Origin: Ensifer sp. IC3342
GTDB lineage: Bacteria; Pseudomonadota; Alphaproteobacteria; Rhizobiales; Rhizobiaceae
NCBI RefSeq assembly: GCF_020193655.1
Contig: NZ_JADYVE010000003.1
Coordinates: forward strand, 124,001 to 188,000
Length of the DNA stretch: 64,000 bases
Direction: 5' to 3'
Shown: piece after piece, positions 5,342 through 12,962 of the stretch
How the letters are laid out: the number at the start of each line of letters is the position of its first letter
Numbering within the stretch: position 1 is the first letter of the stretch
Made by a program: the position numbers and the translations under genes
The notes under the pieces: generated by a model
The model's input: the letters and a program-made list of their open reading frames with translations, nothing else
The model's database searches: none
What the model was told of the DNA's origin: nothing

Positions 5342-5662
5342 TCAGGCCTGGCGTTCCGGAACATGGACGACCAGTCCGTCCAAGGCCTCACTCATCTTGA
5401 TCTGACAGGAAAGCCGCGACGTCGGACGCACGTCATAGGCGAAGTCCAGCATGTCCTCTTCCATAGCCTCGGGCGCGCCGACGGCAGCCGCCCACTCGTC
5501 GTCGACATAGACATGACAGGTCGCGCAGGCGCAAGCGCCGCCGCATTCGGCTTCGATGCCCGGCACAGAATTGCGAACCGCATTCTCCATGACCGTGGAG
5601 CCGTTCTCGACATCGAGTTCGTGGCGCGTGCCGTCAAAGGCTACGATCGTAAGTTTTGTCAT
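5342..5662 (-). CDS. [2Fe-2S] adrenodoxin-type ferredoxin
   Basis: 106 aa, typical length. Small soluble electron carrier. Cluster ligands are seen as C-x5-C-x2-C in [12 protein letters not shown] and a fourth cysteine in [12 protein letters not shown], the arrangement of adrenodoxin/FdxB-type ferredoxins. The start at 5662 ([11 protein letters not shown]) is set by family alignment; the open frame extends upstream without a usable start. Partners cannot be read from context, since the neighbours are an sRNA region and an Hpt gene. Confidence 0.9.
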
Positions 5663-5892: not shown

Positions 5893-6258
5893 TCAGCGGC
5901 AAAGCTTCAGGATGAAAAGCTCGGTCACGAGCACGGCCGCGCTGAGCGCACCGGCAAGGATCGGGTTTCCTGGTTCGCGCTCGATCGCGGCGGCCGCCGC
6001 TGCGACGTCGACGGCTCCGACAGCGAGCGCCGCGCCTTTTAGGCGATGTGCAGCCTGGACGCGCCGATCGGCGTCAACGGCAGCGATTTCGCCCACAGCT
6101 TGTCGCGCCTGCCGCGCAAACAACTGCAGAACCTCGATCTCCAGTTCCTTGTCCCCCATCGTCTGCTTGCCGAGCTGGGCGAAGTCGATAGGCTTTTTGC
6201 CGAGGGATGAACTTTCCTGGTTGTCCGGTGCCTCGAAGGCTATCTTGAGTGCCGCCAT
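5893..6258 (-). CDS. Orphan histidine phosphotransfer (Hpt) domain protein
   Basis: 121 aa. Hpt domains relay phosphate between a hybrid kinase and a response regulator. The phosphoacceptor histidine is in AAHRLKGAALAVGA near residue 75, followed by an Ala-rich helix. About 30 residues precede the domain (PDNQESSSLGKKPIDFAQL). ATG 6258 is used; an upstream TTG at 6276 is less likely. AGGA sits about 11 bases upstream. No kinase or receiver gene is nearby, so its partners are encoded elsewhere. It is divergent from the giant polar-growth gene. Confidence 0.8.
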   Translation of the reverse strand: MAALKIAFEAPDNQESSSLGKKPIDFAQLGKQTMGDKELEIEVLQLFARQARQAVGEIAAVDADRRVQAAHRLKGAALAVGAVDVAAAAAAIEREPGNPILAGALSAAVLVTELFILKLCR

Positions 6259-6393
6259 GGGTCGGTTTCCTATCAATAGGTGTCATGTTCGCCGGCGTTG
6301 TCGCGCCGCATAGAGTATGCGTGGATCATCGGCCGGCGCCGCTGCCATCGGCTTAAAGCGCGATGCAAGTGGCGCAGGAATCTGAGGAAATGG

Positions 6394-6468
6394 TTAACGG
6401 ACGTTAAACGCGCTGATTTCCTTAGCTTTTCCCACCGGAAAGCGGTCATTCTGTTAAGAAATCATTAG
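6394..6468 (+). promoter_or_regulatory. Candidate CtrA-type sites upstream of the giant gene
   Basis: The 515-base gap 6259-6773 has no gene I can support. It contains TTAA at 6454-6457, seven bases, then TTAG at 6465-6468, close to the CtrA consensus TTAA-N7-TTAA, and a second pair TTAAC (6394) and TTAAAC (6404) with one base less spacing. CtrA control would fit a growth-pole gene, but the motif is short and AT-rich gaps produce it by chance. Confidence 0.3.
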
Positions 6469-6773
6469 GATTTTAATGAATGCGGATTGCGCTTAATTGT
6501 AAGAACCTGGCTAATGTGTCACTACGATACGGTCAGGAACGTGTTTGCGTACGAAAGTGGCAACTGTTCCGGTGGAAAAGCTCTGTGCTCGGTGCCGAGA
6601 GGCCTTAGTTCCGGCTATCCATCGAGGCAATGGAATGGGTGAACAGGCAGGGTATTGCGCAGATGTGGCGCGTGTATCCTGGTGTCACCGCCCTGTTTCG
6701 GATGTCTTCGGGATCGCCCAAGCGGCGATGCGGAAATGGCCATCGGCGGGCAATAGTAGTGAGGCGTATCCCT

Positions 6774-9700
6774 ATGGCGACGAAAAAGAGCAGTGAGTCG
6801 ATCGACGAAAAGGCGTTCCAGGCACTGGAAGCGGCCCTGAAGATCGACTTTGACGACCTTAAGTCGGCTCTGAATGACAAGACTTCCTTGGATGAACCGG
6901 AGGAAACCGTGTCTGAGCCCAGCAAGCAGGCGGCCGCAGCATCTGACCACGCGCAGGCTCCAAAGGCGCAGCAGGACGCGCCGAAGGTGGTACGCAGCCT
7001 CGCGCCAGAGCCCGCTCCGAGGCAACCGCCGCTTTCGCCGGCAAATGACGACACGCGCCGATCGCCTGCCGCAATGCTGCGTTCCCTCGAAGTCCGCACC
7101 AGCCGCGTGGCAATCCGTACCGCTGCGCTGGTGTCGCTGCTTTGGGCCTTCGCCGGTGTCGCCATCGCCCATCTCCTCTACGCACCGCAGATCTGGCAGA
7201 TCCGTTCGCTTCCCGACCTCGCCGCGACGCCGGGTGCAATTGGTGTTCTTATCGGCATCGCCCTCCCCGTGATGCTGTTCTTCTCCTTTGCGATCATGCT
7301 TGCGAGAGCGCAGGACCTGCGCAATGCGGCGCGCTCGATGGCGGAGGTTGCCCTGCGCCTTGCAGAGCCGGAAACGACCGCCGCAGACCGGGTGATGACG
7401 GTCGGCCAGGCCGTCCGTCGCGAAGTGTCGGCAATGAACGAAGGTATCGAGCGTACCATCGCACGCGCGACGGAACTCGAAACGCTGGTCCACTCCGAGG
7501 TCAACGCGCTTGAGCGCAGCTATAGCGAAAACGAACTTCGCGTCCGCACCCTCGTGCAGGAACTGGGACTCGAGCGGGAAGCGATCATCGGGCACGCCGA
7601 CAGAATTCGCACCTCGATCGCCGGTGCGCACACCAAGCTGAAGGATGATCTGGAACTTGCGAGCGAGGATATTGCCTCGCGCATCGCTTTGTCCGGCGAA
7701 GCCTTCGCCTCCTTGATCGATACGCGCTCCGCCGCCCTCAGCGAAAGGTCGGAAAACGCGTTGCAGACCATCAGCACGATGCTGTCTACCCGCACCGATG
7801 CGCTCCTTTCCGGGCTCACGACGGCTGGGGTTGCGCTCAGCAATGAATTCGACGCGCGGCTCGACGCATTGAGCGAGACCCTTGAGAGACGCGGCGAGCA
7901 GCTGCTCGGCCAGTTCGAGACCCGCGCTTCGACCCTCGATGCCAATACCGAAAAACTGAATGCCGCCCTCAACGAGCGTGCGCGGCAGCTCAACGAAACG
8001 TTGATTGCACGGACCCGTGATCTCAACGAAAGCCTGAGCGTCGGCCAGCAGGCGATCGCCGGCGGGCTCGACGACATGCTTGCCTCGCTCAATGCCGCGC
8101 TCGACGAAAAGGGCGCGAGCTTCAGGCAGAGTCTCAAGACAAGTGCCGACGACGCGATCATGGATCTCGATCTTCGCGGCGGTTTCTTTGAAGAGAAGCT
8201 GCAGACCACGGTCGGTCAGTTGGCGACGGCCTTCGACGAGCGCTTCCATGAATTCGCAAGTGCGTTCGACAAGCGGGCGAGCCTGCTCGACACCAAGTTG
8301 ATGGAAAGCCTGCACCGGATCAACGAGACCGTTACCGGTGGCTCGGAGGCGATCGGCAGCGCACTCGACAGCGGTGTCGAGAAGATCGGTTCGGCGCTTT
8401 CCGACCAGTCGCTGACGCTTGCCACGACGCTTGGCGCGACACAGGATTTCATCGAGGAAAGCATCGGCAGCCGTACGTCCGAGCTCAGCAACCTCATTGG
8501 TGGTGCGCAGGACCGCATCGAGAGCGTGCTTTCCGAGAAGACCGGTTCGCTGATGGGCGCGCTTACCGAAGCACAGGAACGGATCGAGAATGGCTTCGGC
8601 CGGCGCGCCGATGCGCTTGCGGATGCGCTCACGACCAGCGAGCAGCGCCTGACCGAGGGGCTTGACTCGCGTACGTCCGCCTTCATCGACGGTCTGCAAT
8701 CCGCGCATGCGCGGATAGAACAGACACTCACGGGCACGACCGACGAAATTACCAGCGCGATCGCGGCAAGCCAGCATCGCCTGGACAACACACTCTCGGA
8801 GCGCACCGCTGCCATCTCGACCGCCCTCACCTCCGGCGCGAGCCTCGTCGAGGACGCGGTCGCCGGTACGGCCGATCGACTGGAGCGCGTCCTCTCCGAG
8901 CGCGGACAGGTGATCTCCGAAACGCTCAGCAGCCAGACCCAAGCGCTCGAAGGCGTGCTGTCGCAACGCGGCGCGGCGATCACCGATGCGCTCACCAACC
9001 AGACGACGGCGCTCGATGGCATCCTTTCGGAGCGCGCGACGCAGATCAACTCGACGATATCGGCCCGCGCCAATGAAATGGCGGACACTCTCAGCCGCCA
9101 CGCCGAAGACGTTGCAGACAACCTGACGTTCCGCGCGATGGCTGTTGCCGAGACGATGACGGACCGCGTCGGTGAGATTGAGAACAAGCTTTCGCAAAGC
9201 GTATCGGAGGTGGCCGAGAACCTCGGCAGCCGCGTCAGCCAGATCGCCGGCACGCTCACCGAAACAAGCGCCCGTATCGCCGAAGACCTGAGTGGCCGCG
9301 TCGGCAAGATTTCGGACGCCTTGACTGGCACCAGCGCCGAGATCGCGGAAGCGCTCACTGCCCGCACGTCCGAGGCGACCGCCTCGCTCGCCGGCAAGGC
9401 TGCGGAAATCGAACAGGCGCTTTCCGGCAAAACCGAGCATCTGCGCGACACGCTCACGACGACGCATGATCAGATACGGGCGACCCTCGACGATCGGATC
9501 CACGCAATCAATCTGGCCGTCGGCCAGGGCCGCGAGCAGCTTGAGGATCTGCTGTCCGATCAGTCCATGGCGATTGCTGCGACGCTCGCAACCAGCGCCA
9601 GCATGCTGGAAATGTCGCTCGAGGAGCGACAGGCGTCGATTGCCGGCGTCATCGACCGCAGCGCCGAAGCGCTCGACGCGCGCATGCGCTCCACCACCGG

Positions 9701-12700
9701 CAATATCGCGGAGCGCCTTGCCGAGACGGCCGACCAGATCAGCCTTGCGGCCGACACGCTCACCAATCGCGTCGACATTTCGATCAACGGCATCAACAGC
9801 CGTTTGGACGATACCGGCGCCCGCATTGAGGCGAGCCTCGGCACGTTCGAAGATCGCGTTCAGGGCAGCGTTGGCAGCGTCAACGCTTTCGTCGATGAGA
9901 CCGGCGCGCGCATCGAAACGAGCCTTGGTTCGCTCGAGGAGCGTATTCGCGGCACTGTCGGCACCGTCAGCGGCATCGTCGACGATACGGGTGTCCGCAT
10001 CGAGAACCGCCTCGGTGCTGTCGAAGAGCGTATTCGCGGCAGCGTCGGTAACGTGAACGCAATCGTCGACGACACCGGCGCGCGCATCGAAACGAGCCTT
10101 GGCTCGCTCGAAGAGCGCATTCGCGGCAGCGTCGGCAATGTCAACGCGATCGTCGACGACGCTGGCTCGCGCATCGAAACGAGCCTCGGTTCGCTCGATG
10201 AGCGAATTCGCGACAGTATCGGCAGCGTCAACGCCGTCGTCGACCATGCCGGACAGCGGATCGCCGATAGCCTTGGCGAGCGCGCCGGCGAGATCGATCG
10301 GATCAGCGAGACCGCGGCAGCCCGCATCTCCACGGCGATCGAGGCCGGTACGGGCCGTATCGAAGAGCGGCTCGGTACGATGGACCGTGCGCTCAACATC
10401 GGTCTCGAAAACGTCAACCGCACGATCGAAGGCAAGGCAGCCGCCCTCGTTACCAGCTTGCGCGGTGCGGTAAGCAGCGCGGCGCAGGAACTCGACGCGG
10501 AAGCTGCGCGTTCGGCCGACCTTTTGTCGAAGGCCGGCGCGGATTTCGCCGACGCGCTTGCCGCCCGCAACGCCGAATTCGCCAATTCGATCGAGCAGAC
10601 GGCATCGGCCACGGCCGCCCGCCATGCTGATCTCGCCCGCTCGGTCTCAGACGCCGCGGATACGGCGACCGCCCGGCTTGCCTCCACCCATAACCAGGTT
10701 GCGAGCCACGCCCAGGGCATCCAGCAGAGCCTCTCGGATGCGGAAAAGGCGCTTGAGGCTCGCGGCCACGCCATCCGCAGCACGCTCGACGAACGCACCC
10801 GCGAACTCAATTCGATGCTCGCCGGCCGCTCGCTTGAGCTGTCCCGCCTTCTCGACGAGCAGGCACGGCCCGTCATCGAGCAGTATGCTGCAACCGGCAA
10901 GGAAGCCGCCGAGCGGATCGCTGCCCTCACCCAGGAAAGCGCGGATCGCCTGCGCGCCGAAAATGCTGCGCTCATCAACGCGATTACCGAGCGGACCGAC
11001 GAGACGCTCAATGCCATCACGCTGCGCGCAGAAGAGACGGCCAAGGCCATGAAGATGGTCGAGAACCGGCTCCAGTCGACGGCAATGGGCCTTATCGACC
11101 AGCTCGCCGCCAACAATTCGGCGATCGCGACCGTTATCGATCAGGCGAGCAACAATCTCGGTGACATGGATCAGCGCCTCGAGGCGACGGCATCGAAGGT
11201 CTCGGAAACGACACGGCAGGCATCCGACATGCTGTCGAGCTCCGCGCGCCTCATTGAAGGCCGTGTCGACAAGTTGTCCGACATCGCTGGCTCGACGCTT
11301 TCTCAGATCGGTGGGATCGTCGGCCGCTTCGAGGATCACTCGAAGGTTCTCGGCCAGGCGTCCGACCTGTTGGCCGCCGCCCAGTCGAACCTGGTCAGCA
11401 CGCTCGAAGAGCGTCAGGGCGCATTGCGGACGCTTTCCGTCGGCCTGGTGCAGCGTTCGGAAGAAATCGAACGCACGATGCGGGCACTGGAAGGCTTCGT
11501 CGATGGCGCCTTCCAGCGCGCCGAAGAGCGCTCCGGTCAGGTCGCCGGCAATCTTCGCAGTGGCATCCAGTCCTCCTTCGCTGACGTCGGCCGGCTGCTT
11601 TCGAGCACCGAACAGCGTGCGAACGAGGCTGCCGAAGCGATGCGCAACGCTCTGGCGCAGGCTGGCGAGGAAGCAGGCGCGTCGGTCGAAGGCGTCCTTG
11701 CGCGCGCCGAGGAACGGACTCGCCAGATCGCCGATAGGTTGCGCTCGGGCGTCGAAACCTCGTTCGCGGACGTCAACAAGACCCTGTCGCAGGTGGAGGG
11801 GCGCGCGCTCAGCGCCTCCGAGGCACTTCGCCAGGCGATCGCCAAGGCAGGCGAGGATGCCGGTCAATCGATCGAGGGCGCCTTTGCAAACGCCGAGGAG
11901 CGTTCCAAGGAAGTGGCATCTCGGCTGCGCGGCAGTGTCGGCGCCTCGGTGTCCGACATCGAGCGCATGCTGGCAGAAAGCGGCAAGAAGTCTGACGGCG
12001 TCGCCGCTCAACTGCGCGAGGCTGTCCGTCAGGCGATTGATGAGGCGATCAACCGCTTCAGCGGTGCGACCGACGATATCCGCCGTTCCGCCAACGAGAT
12101 CCGCAAGGAACTCGACATGACCCGCGAGGAACTGAAGCGTGGCGCCTTCGACCTGCCCGAGGAGGCAAAGGAGAACGCATCAATGATGCGGCGCGCCGTC
12201 TCCGAGCAGATCAAGGCGCTGCAGGAGCTTTCTGAAATCATCGGCAAGTCCTCCACGCAGCTCGAGGTCGCGCAGCCGGTTCGCCAGCAGGCAGTCTCGA
12301 ATGTTCCAGCCCCTGCCGCCCCTCGCCCGGCTGTCCAGCAACCGGTCGCGCAGGAGCGGCGTGAGCAGCCGGCCCCAGCACCGGCTCCCGCACCGGCGCC
12401 GGCTCCTGCCCTGCGTGGTAGCCTTGGGCTGGAGCAGGCCACACGCCCGCAGCCGCCTGCCCGCCAAGATGCGGCCGAGGACCGCCCGGAAGAAGGCGGC
12501 GGCTGGATGCGCGATCTCCTTCGCGCGGCCTCCCGTGAGGAAGCGCCAGCCACCGCGCGCCAGCGGCCGGCGGAAAGCCAGCCTTCGGTGCGCCCAGGCG
12601 ATAACCGCAATCCGCGCCATGTGGTCGAGTCGTTGAACTCTCTCTCGGTCGACATCGCCCGGGCCATCGACCACGACGCGTCGGTGGATCTCTGGCGGCG

Positions 12701-12962
12701 TTATCAGCGCGGCGAACGCGATGTGTTCACGCGCCGGCTCTACACGCTCAAGGGCCAGCAGACATTCGACGAGATCAAGCGCAAGTATGATCGCGAGCCG
12801 GAGTTCCGGACGGCGGTAGACCGCTACATCGCCGATTTCGAAAAGCTGCTCGCCGATGTCGCGCGGAATGATCCCGACAAGCGCATCACGCAGACCTATC
12901 TGACGTCGGATACCGGCAAGGTCTACACGATGCTCGCCCACGCAGCCGGTCGCTTCAACTGA
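6774..12962 (+). CDS. rgsE: Giant coiled-coil polar growth protein, RgsE/GPR (growth pole ring) homologue
   Basis: 2062 aa. Start at 6774 (MATKKSSES) after GTGAGG; upstream in-frame codons read as non-coding. Layout seen: acidic N-terminus (1-110), two membrane segments (about 113-135 and 153-178), about 1550 residues of near-continuous helix with heptad/apolipoprotein-like repeats, five 29-residue tandem repeats (residues 1011-1155), three 62-residue repeats (residues 1577-1762), a Pro/Ala linker near 1870, and a compact C-terminal domain (VVESLNSLSVDIARAIDHD to the end). Length, two N-terminal membrane spans and the apolipoprotein-like body match GPR of Agrobacterium (about 2100 aa) and RgsE of Sinorhizobium meliloti, which form a ring at the growing pole and are needed for unipolar growth. 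Identification is from memory of that architecture, not a search. Confidence 0.85.
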   Translation: MATKKSSESIDEKAFQALEAALKIDFDDLKSALNDKTSLDEPEETVSEPSKQAAAASDHAQAPKAQQDAPKVVRSLAPEPAPRQPPLSPANDDTRRSPAAMLRSLEVRTSRVAIRTAALVSLLWAFAGVAIAHLLYAPQIWQIRSLPDLAATPGAIGVLIGIALPVMLFFSFAIMLARAQDLRNAARSMAEVALRLAEPETTAADRVMTVGQAVRREVSAMNEGIERTIARATELETLVHSEVNALERSYSENELRVRTLVQELGLEREAIIGHADRIRTSIAGAHTKLKDDLELASEDIASRIALSGEAFASLIDTRSAALSERSENALQTISTMLSTRTDALLSGLTTAGVALSNEFDARLDALSETLERRGEQLLGQFETRASTLDANTEKLNAALNERARQLNETLIARTRDLNESLSVGQQAIAGGLDDMLASLNAALDEKGASFRQSLKTSADDAIMDLDLRGGFFEEKLQTTVGQLATAFDERFHEFASAFDKRASLLDTKLMESLHRINETVTGGSEAIGSALDSGVEKIGSALSDQSLTLATTLGATQDFIEESIGSRTSELSNLIGGAQDRIESVLSEKTGSLMGALTEAQERIENGFGRRADALADALTTSEQRLTEGLDSRTSAFIDGLQSAHARIEQTLTGTTDEITSAIAASQHRLDNTLSERTAAISTALTSGASLVEDAVAGTADRLERVLSERGQVISETLSSQTQALEGVLSQRGAAITDALTNQTTALDGILSERATQINSTISARANEMADTLSRHAEDVADNLTFRAMAVAETMTDRVGEIENKLSQSVSEVAENLGSRVSQIAGTLTETSARIAEDLSGRVGKISDALTGTSAEIAEALTARTSEATASLAGKAAEIEQALSGKTEHLRDTLTTTHDQIRATLDDRIHAINLAVGQGREQLEDLLSDQSMAIAATLATSASMLEMSLEERQASIAGVIDRSAEALDARMRSTTGNIAERLAETADQISLAADTLTNRVDISINGINSRLDDTGARIEASLGTFEDRVQGSVGSVNAFVDETGARIETSLGSLEERIRGTVGTVSGIVDDTGVRIENRLGAVEERIRGSVGNVNAIVDDTGARIETSLGSLEERIRGSVGNVNAIVDDAGSRIETSLGSLDERIRDSIGSVNAVVDHAGQRIADSLGERAGEIDRISETAAARISTAIEAGTGRIEERLGTMDRALNIGLENVNRTIEGKAAALVTSLRGAVSSAAQELDAEAARSADLLSKAGADFADALAARNAEFANSIEQTASATAARHADLARSVSDAADTATARLASTHNQVASHAQGIQQSLSDAEKALEARGHAIRSTLDERTRELNSMLAGRSLELSRLLDEQARPVIEQYAATGKEAAERIAALTQESADRLRAENAALINAITERTDETLNAITLRAEETAKAMKMVENRLQSTAMGLIDQLAANNSAIATVIDQASNNLGDMDQRLEATASKVSETTRQASDMLSSSARLIEGRVDKLSDIAGSTLSQIGGIVGRFEDHSKVLGQASDLLAAAQSNLVSTLEERQGALRTLSVGLVQRSEEIERTMRALEGFVDGAFQRAEERSGQVAGNLRSGIQSSFADVGRLLSSTEQRANEAAEAMRNALAQAGEEAGASVEGVLARAEERTRQIADRLRSGVETSFADVNKTLSQVEGRALSASEALRQAIAKAGEDAGQSIEGAFANAEERSKEVASRLRGSVGASVSDIERMLAESGKKSDGVAAQLREAVRQAIDEAINRFSGATDDIRRSANEIRKELDMTREELKRGAFDLPEEAKENASMMRRAVSEQIKALQELSEIIGKSSTQLEVAQPVRQQAVSNVPAPAAPRPAVQQPVAQERREQPAPAPAPAPAPAPALRGSLGLEQATRPQPPARQDAAEDRPEEGGGWMRDLLRAASREEAPATARQRPAESQPSVRPGDNRNPRHVVESLNSLSVDIARAIDHDASVDLWRRYQRGERDVFTRRLYTLKGQQTFDEIKRKYDREPEFRTAVDRYIADFEKLLADVARNDPDKRITQTYLTSDTGKVYTMLAHAAGRFN
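9804..10238 (+). repeat. Five tandem 87-bp repeats inside rgsE
   Basis: Repeat starts at 9804, 9891, 9978, 10065 and 10152 are exactly 87 bases apart and in frame, coding a 29-residue unit of the type VDDTGARIETSLGSLEERIR plus GSVGNVNAI. A decayed sixth copy starts at 10239. The fourth copy and its neighbours are nearly identical at the DNA level, so copy number may vary by recombination. Confidence 0.9.
11502..12059 (+). repeat. Three tandem 186-bp repeats inside rgsE
   Basis: Units start at 11502, 11688 and 11874, each coding 62 residues of the type EGVLARAEERTRQIADRLRS followed by a serine/phenylalanine turn and a second helix. They are more diverged than the 87-bp set. Confidence 0.8.

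Follow-up and report, generated by a model that had tools for sequence, protein, structure and literature searches.

How rhizobia and their kin confine growth to one end of the cell without MreB machinery is a question for which GPR and RgsE are leading candidate scaffolds. Papers on these orthologues describe a polar location, a ring of foci, an altered cell shape on their loss, a need for the C-terminus and interactions with TolQ, RgsA and RgsS. Which parts of so long a protein could serve such a ring is the question raised by the gene at 6774 to 12962 of a 64,000-nucleotide stretch of Ensifer sp. IC3342 (contig NZ_JADYVE010000003.1, positions 124,001 to 188,000), hereafter the window, to which all positions refer. 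The answer we favour, with modest confidence, is that in RgsE/GPR a long right-handed helical rod connects two conserved ends that serve for docking. As such, the protein is of an ordinary, already described kind; what the analysis adds is a clear modular picture of it, with steps of 11 and 29 residues as the units of its arm.

Identity and layout of the protein

The gene is a single open frame on the forward strand, from the ATG at 6774 to the stop at 12962, and encodes 2062 amino acids. This ATG is the likely start because homologues from other families begin with M-A at that place; an in-frame upstream ATG at 6630, which would give 2110 amino acids, was rejected, as homologues do not back a start there. 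The layout proposed in the initial annotation, with two N-terminal membrane helices, a long helix, a Pro/Ala linker and a compact C-terminal domain, was recovered and divides as follows.

6774..12962 (stop included), forward strand: the rgsE/gpr orthologue, 2062 amino acids, from frame calling, genome search and alignment with RgsE
6774..7088, forward strand: N-terminal cytoplasmic segment, residues 1-105, of low complexity and holding a PANDD motif
7107..7304, forward strand: membrane hairpin of two transmembrane helices, about residues 112-177, from hydropathy and AlphaFold2
7341..7643, forward strand: conserved juxtamembrane helix, residues 190-290, with the invariant Pro of RLAEPE (195-200) near its start
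7644..12275, forward strand: helical arm, residues 291-1834, with 11/3 periodicity and two prolines (1366 and 1795)
9804..10325, forward strand: 29-residue repeats, residues 1011-1184
11589..12146, forward strand: 62-residue repeats, residues 1606-1791, weak in the last copy
12276..12608, forward strand: Pro/Ala linker, residues 1835-1945
12504..12533, forward strand: motif W-x-x-D-L-L-x-x-A-S, residues 1911-1920, inside the linker and seen in many aligned members of the order
12627..12959, forward strand: C-terminal domain, residues 1952-2062, six helices, no Pfam family

On sequence grounds, the gene is the single-copy RgsE orthologue of a Sinorhizobium/Ensifer species; an RgsE/GPR-like protein had been proposed at the outset. 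Similarity to a 2089-residue protein of Sinorhizobium meliloti Ak57 runs over the full length, with 1692 of 2032 aligned residues identical (83.3%), and RgsE (SMc00190) of S. meliloti has 2,089 amino acids (PMC7327166). The Ak57 homologue, located by tblastn of plasmid records, is annotated ‘kinesin’, and its assignment as RgsE rests on species, length and neighbourhood. Ten neighbouring genes are common to the window and Ak57, from folK through folB, folP, DUF922, ferredoxin, Hpt, petC, petB and petA to an ABC transporter. The two loci differ downstream, where the window has a glyoxalase-type gene and Ak57 an IS110 transposase in that gap. The proteins are alike in the two membrane helices, the arm, the C-terminal domain and length (2062 versus 2089), and differ by a 22-residue gap (2 × 11) within residues 701-800 that depends on how the repeats are aligned. 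A further local feature is the drop to 36% identity at residues 1001-1100 (9774-10073), flanked by hundreds at 69% and 86%; either turnover of the 29-residue repeats or their misalignment would account for it.

In its own genome the protein matched one place at E ≤ 10, and the S. meliloti record likewise gave one match. A second row in the genome search was an antisense match of 24%, and the idea of two copies was rejected; an orthologue elsewhere in the genome, which would have spoken against the assignment, was absent from that search. In a quick tree of both end modules, built from the 58 of 63 proteins that passed the filter, the window protein groups with S. meliloti and four congeners (SH-like approximate likelihood-ratio test 99). 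RgsE and GPR are 42% identical (PMC7327166), and GPR of Agrobacterium tumefaciens (Atu1348) has 2115 amino acids, two N-terminal membrane helices, a Pro-rich region near the C-terminus and Pfam family PF01442 across about 75% of its length (PMC8262873). By published description, the window protein resembles GPR in the membrane helices, the PF01442 arm and the Pro-rich region. The Ak57 record, titled plasmid pSymB (CP090106.1), is 3.72 Mb long and holds folP, petA and rgsE; it is probably a mislabelled chromosome.

The two end modules and their range

Both ends of the protein are conserved. Among 22 congeners, mean identity to the window protein was 98.8% for residues 1946-2062, 90.2% for the membrane and juxtamembrane zone, 89.2% for the arm, 83.6% for the N-terminus and 81.5% for the linker; the membrane/juxtamembrane and C-terminal zones had no gaps in 23 sequences. 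One row (L215, genome G010) gave no gene and was dropped from the congeneric set.

Hydropathy places two hydrophobic segments near the N-terminus, with their centres at residues 126 and 167. An AlphaFold2 model of residues 98-330, made from a 49-sequence alignment, has helices at 112-140 and 153-197 and then an unbroken helix from 200 to the end of the model; its predicted local distance difference test (pLDDT) of 92 and predicted template-modelling score (pTM) of 0.46 speak for local, not global, confidence. The only invariant residue of the alignment is the Pro of RLAEPE, just before the long helix. At the other end, beyond a linker with 21 prolines in 111 residues, the C-terminal 111 residues modelled alone formed six helices (pLDDT 89, pTM 0.80). 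Foldseek returned 62 matches of this domain in the PDB at E ≤ 10 and none at E ≤ 0.001; the best E value was 0.14 for its sequence profile against the PDB, and 0.022 against Pfam over 18 members scanned.

The initial annotation had pointed to the C-terminal domain as the most conserved-looking part and a possible docking point, and had suggested a search with this region alone in Rhizobiales. Its conservation was borne out by the congeners and by that search, in which the profile matched 380 of the order's 397 genomes (334 of the 341 good ones) and 138 of its 142 genera; docking may be what this conservation reflects. Previously, deletions of 221 or 332 C-terminal residues were found to block complementation by GPR (PMC8262873), and the importance of the C-terminus is thus already published.

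Beyond the order, in a sample of 385 genomes from the class, the C-terminal profile matched 147, five of these within the order, and a wider profile that included rows from other orders matched 78 of 299 genomes from the phylum, all 78 belonging to the class of the window. Both end modules lie on one protein in 61 of the 63 proteins scored, two of them (L058 and L063) being 5′-truncated with weak N-terminal matches; the two proteins without both modules are a truncated one (L046) and one from Sphingomonas (L155). The breadth of the family was partly known already, since RgsE homologues have been reported in all Rhizobiales families, with distant ones in Emcibacterales and Rhodospirillales (PMC7327166). 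The named Sphingomonas record adds Sphingomonadales to this range. What is new, going by these profile matches, is that both ends are common to much of Alphaproteobacteria, with an arm between them that varies several-fold in length.

A comparison with a shorter scaffold is suggested by TipN of Caulobacter crescentus, a new-pole marker of 882 amino acids called analogous to GPR (PMC13170164). The similarity of GPR and TipN is already in print (PMC8546619), and most alphaproteobacteria are described as being without TipN (PMC5182065). By description, TipN and RgsE/GPR are both membrane-anchored with a long helical part. One family of our searches (f115), with frames of 830-1005 amino acids in six genomes, might be TipN: both GPR end modules were present in three of the three proteins checked, the C-terminal match being weak (E 3.5e-6 to 1.3e-4) with profiles made without rows from this family. 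The f115 protein had no match by tblastn in plasmid records, none in the PDB at E ≤ 0.1 and none in NCBIfam at E ≤ 0.001.

Two side observations concern the C-terminal domain. Another family (f74, for example G669:C3:412828-413127) matches it weakly, with frames of only 329-377 amino acids, too short to include a long arm. The domain is matched two or three times in each of seven genomes of the order (G235, G274, G329, G348, G373, G381 and G385).

Periodicity and length of the helical arm

Between the ends, residues 291-1834 contain two prolines in 1,544 residues; the helix of about 1550 residues proposed earlier came to about 1,540, nearly free of proline. Regular 11-mers run across about residues 300-1000, and the 29-residue repeats are also seen in the DNA as 87-nucleotide repeats at 9720-10276. 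The repeats expected from the initial annotation are thus real, and its two distinct zones become three, namely the 11-mer, the 29-residue and a weaker 62-residue zone.

The hydrophobic period of the arm, taken over five stretches and the whole, is 3.63-3.67, near 11/3 or 29/8. Periodicity power was 11-30 at the peak versus 0.1-1.5 at the heptad value of 3.5 (the piece at 187-290 gave no value), and a heptad coiled coil was rejected for the arm, whose period departs from 3.5. Within residues 641-990, position 0 of the 11-mer is hydrophobic in 32 of 32 units and position 7 in 31 of 32. The arm is strongly acidic, with a net charge of −88, and its hydrophobic stripe is narrow (24% LIVMF), which resembles the seam of an oligomer more than a lipid-binding face.

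Length changes follow the same units within the genus. In 29 pairs of congeners, arm gaps of up to 100 residues were sums of 11 and 29 in 28 of 29 cases, compared with 2 of 40 in the linker and a chance level of 22% (the share of lengths from 1 to 100 that are such sums). Arm length in the genus therefore shifts almost only by units, 11 and 29, that keep the phase of the stripe.

A lipid function has previously been proposed for the arm from its PF01442 (Apolipoprotein) label (PMC8262873): an apolipoprotein-like belt of amphipathic helices resting on the inner membrane, where it would sort lipids at the pole. In the window, PF01442 indeed scores 281 bits over 15 stretches of the arm at a cut-off of 90. 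For residues 641-970, which score 119 bits, two shuffles that keep the 11-residue register retained 78 and 83 bits (E 9e-22 and 3e-23) and two full shuffles gave no Apolipoprotein match, four decoys in all. The real piece exceeds the register shuffles by 36-41 bits, which counts in favour of a lipid belt; about two thirds of the score is periodicity, and this lowers the likelihood of a lipid role, as do the acidity of the arm and its narrow stripe. We consider such a belt unlikely, and a lipid function is not safely read from the apolipoprotein label. The arm also resembles the ZorA tail (NCBIfam NF033914) at E 1.4e-18; this match, best in a stretch of the arm, falls below threshold (66.6 bits versus a cut-off of 190), and ZorA membership was rejected. 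Shared helix periodicity may suffice to explain it.

In the two-ended rod that we favour, the membrane hairpin and juxtamembrane helix would anchor the protein at one end to the inner membrane of the growing pole, and the 11-residue hydrophobic stripe of the arm would pack with those of other copies as a right-handed coiled coil. A helix rises 0.15 nm per residue, and the rod would measure some 230-245 nm here, if straight. The Pro/Ala linker would hold the small C-terminal domain, which would dock a partner of the growth machinery. Selection would then keep the stripe continuous and both ends intact, not the exact length of the arm.

Several points weigh against this picture. GPR lacking 332 C-terminal residues still forms paired foci (PMC8262873), so the C-terminal domain is dispensable for ring assembly. 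The gap counts are not independent, because the pairs share history, and the rule of 11 and 29 is much looser outside the genus: in 68 pairs of a Mesorhizobium-type set, such sums accounted for only 49 of the 107 arm gaps no longer than 100 residues (linker, 0 of 107). Of the other 58, 37 were 7, 36, 65, 72 or 94 residues, also near whole helical turns, and 12 were single residues. This set comprised 80 loci, of which 79 gave a gene, 71 had a frame closed at the 5′ end and 69 were used; for nearly all of them, residue 290 of the open frame was taken as the beginning of the arm (the start motif matched in 4 of 79), so some N-terminal gaps may have been counted as arm. The 11/3 pattern fits lipid-bound helices as well, and two 21-residue coiled-coil pieces have been predicted in GPR (PMC8262873). 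Lastly, the GPR ring has been described as 200 nm across with six foci of 50 nm, and foci of this size were set in print against a helical domain of 1,700 residues put at 600 nm when extended (PMC8262873).

On this last argument, the arm would double back on itself as a compact antiparallel bundle, and whole molecules would fit within a single 50-nm focus. The 112 glycines in residues 291-1870 could permit bends; with two prolines in 1,544 residues, the arm has few clear turning points. The foci, as we read PMC8262873, were imaged with an N-terminal GFP and locate the N-terminus only. At about 0.36 nm per residue, the figure of 600 nm corresponds to a strand; as a helix, 1,700 residues would measure about 255 nm, and caution is due in using 600 nm for the extended arm. 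A folded bundle appears distinctly improbable to us.

If the rod is straight, its length could itself act as a ruler that fixes the diameter of the polar ring, in line with the earlier suggestion that the size of the ring depends on helix and repeats. With about 1,550-1,700 residues, such a straight helix would span 230-255 nm, near the 200-nm ring, and protein length varies little within the genus (2028-2222 amino acids, mean 2091, standard deviation 38, n = 23). The distance between the end modules, linker included, tells against it, ranging from 311 to 2412 residues across the 58 proteins of the tree, on which short and long arms (cut at 900; one row stands at 896) have interchanged at least five times. 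Among 40 isolates named Mesorhizobium the distance is 1216-2008, or 1474-2008 without L147 and L153, which are the shortest and among the most divergent and may belong to other genera; these 40 are those of the 69 rows that bear the genus name and, going by their titles, are not metagenome bins. The suggestion is weakened by this spread, and a strict ruler is unlikely unless ring size varies equally. We rate a ruler the least probable of the readings weighed here. The two-ended rod asks for a continuous stripe and intact ends, at whatever length.

The divergent Hpt gene and a CtrA-like site

Upstream of rgsE, the window holds a small gene of signalling type, next to a ferredoxin gene, and a candidate regulatory site.

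5893..6276, reverse strand: single-domain Hpt protein, divergent to rgsE, with HxxKG intact
5342..5662, reverse strand: 2Fe-2S ferredoxin adjoining the Hpt gene
6390..6407, no strand: CtrA-like site ATGGTTAA-CGGACG-TTAA in the region between hpt and rgsE

The Hpt protein scores 31.4 bits against PF01627 (cut-off 24.6) and counts among the three Hpt matches at E ≤ 0.001 in this genome. With a profile grown from it on the flanks of the same loci, a divergent upstream Hpt gene was found in 22 of 22 congeners, 68 of 71 Mesorhizobium-type loci, 24 of 29 loci from the rest of the order and 11 of 21 from other orders, several of these 21 being close relatives; loci with fewer than 900 nucleotides upstream were left out. 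HxxKG is kept in 19 of 22, 65 of 68, 18 of 24 and 9 of 11 of these Hpt genes, respectively. That rgsE/gpr often adjoins a small signalling-type Hpt gene is new: our literature search found no paper on the pairing. The passages of PMC9022086 mention Hpt in connection with the kinase RdsA alone; its authors saw no Hpt gene near rdsA, and GPR expression is normal in the mutant of that study.

The CtrA-type motif TTAACCAT is named in PMC11527210. Its reverse, ATGGTTAA, lies at −371 to −385 in 23 of 23 congeners and occurs in 12 of 53 loci outside the genus (17 of 58 with five congeners included), where about 0.01 per locus is expected; in the intergenic region of Mesorhizobium-type loci it was found in 0 of 71. 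The paired TTAA sites of the predicted CtrA-like site are spaced by 6, versus 7 in the consensus, and the consensus spacing of 7 binds better (PMC3616915). SMc00190 is not named in the main-text passages of PMC4433202.

A wider proposal, which as a whole is doubtful, would join these observations. RgsE/GPR would belong, as one branch, to a family of alphaproteobacterial pole scaffolds whose membrane and C-terminal ends are fixed and whose arm grew and shrank repeatedly; TipN of Caulobacter would be a member with a short arm. Through the conserved divergent Hpt protein, the scaffold would be linked to a phosphorelay. This Hpt protein could even supply the phosphotransfer that is missing for an orphan kinase controlling cell shape, such as RdsA of Rhizobium etli, and CtrA would act on the shared promoter region in Sinorhizobium.

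Some minor observations concern the same region. Of 62 loci, some of them with short flanks, 27 have a match to ferredoxin close to the gene. HxxKG has been lost from the Hpt protein in some lineages (for example L034 and L044). A scan of 6200-6800 found no sigma-70-type promoter and no terminator. An antisense frame of 1336 amino acids over rgsE (6615-10625, reverse strand) was attributed to chance, since 198 of 500 synonymous shuffles gave one equally long; among 22 congeners the longest antisense frame over the gene ranges from 323 to 1610 codons.

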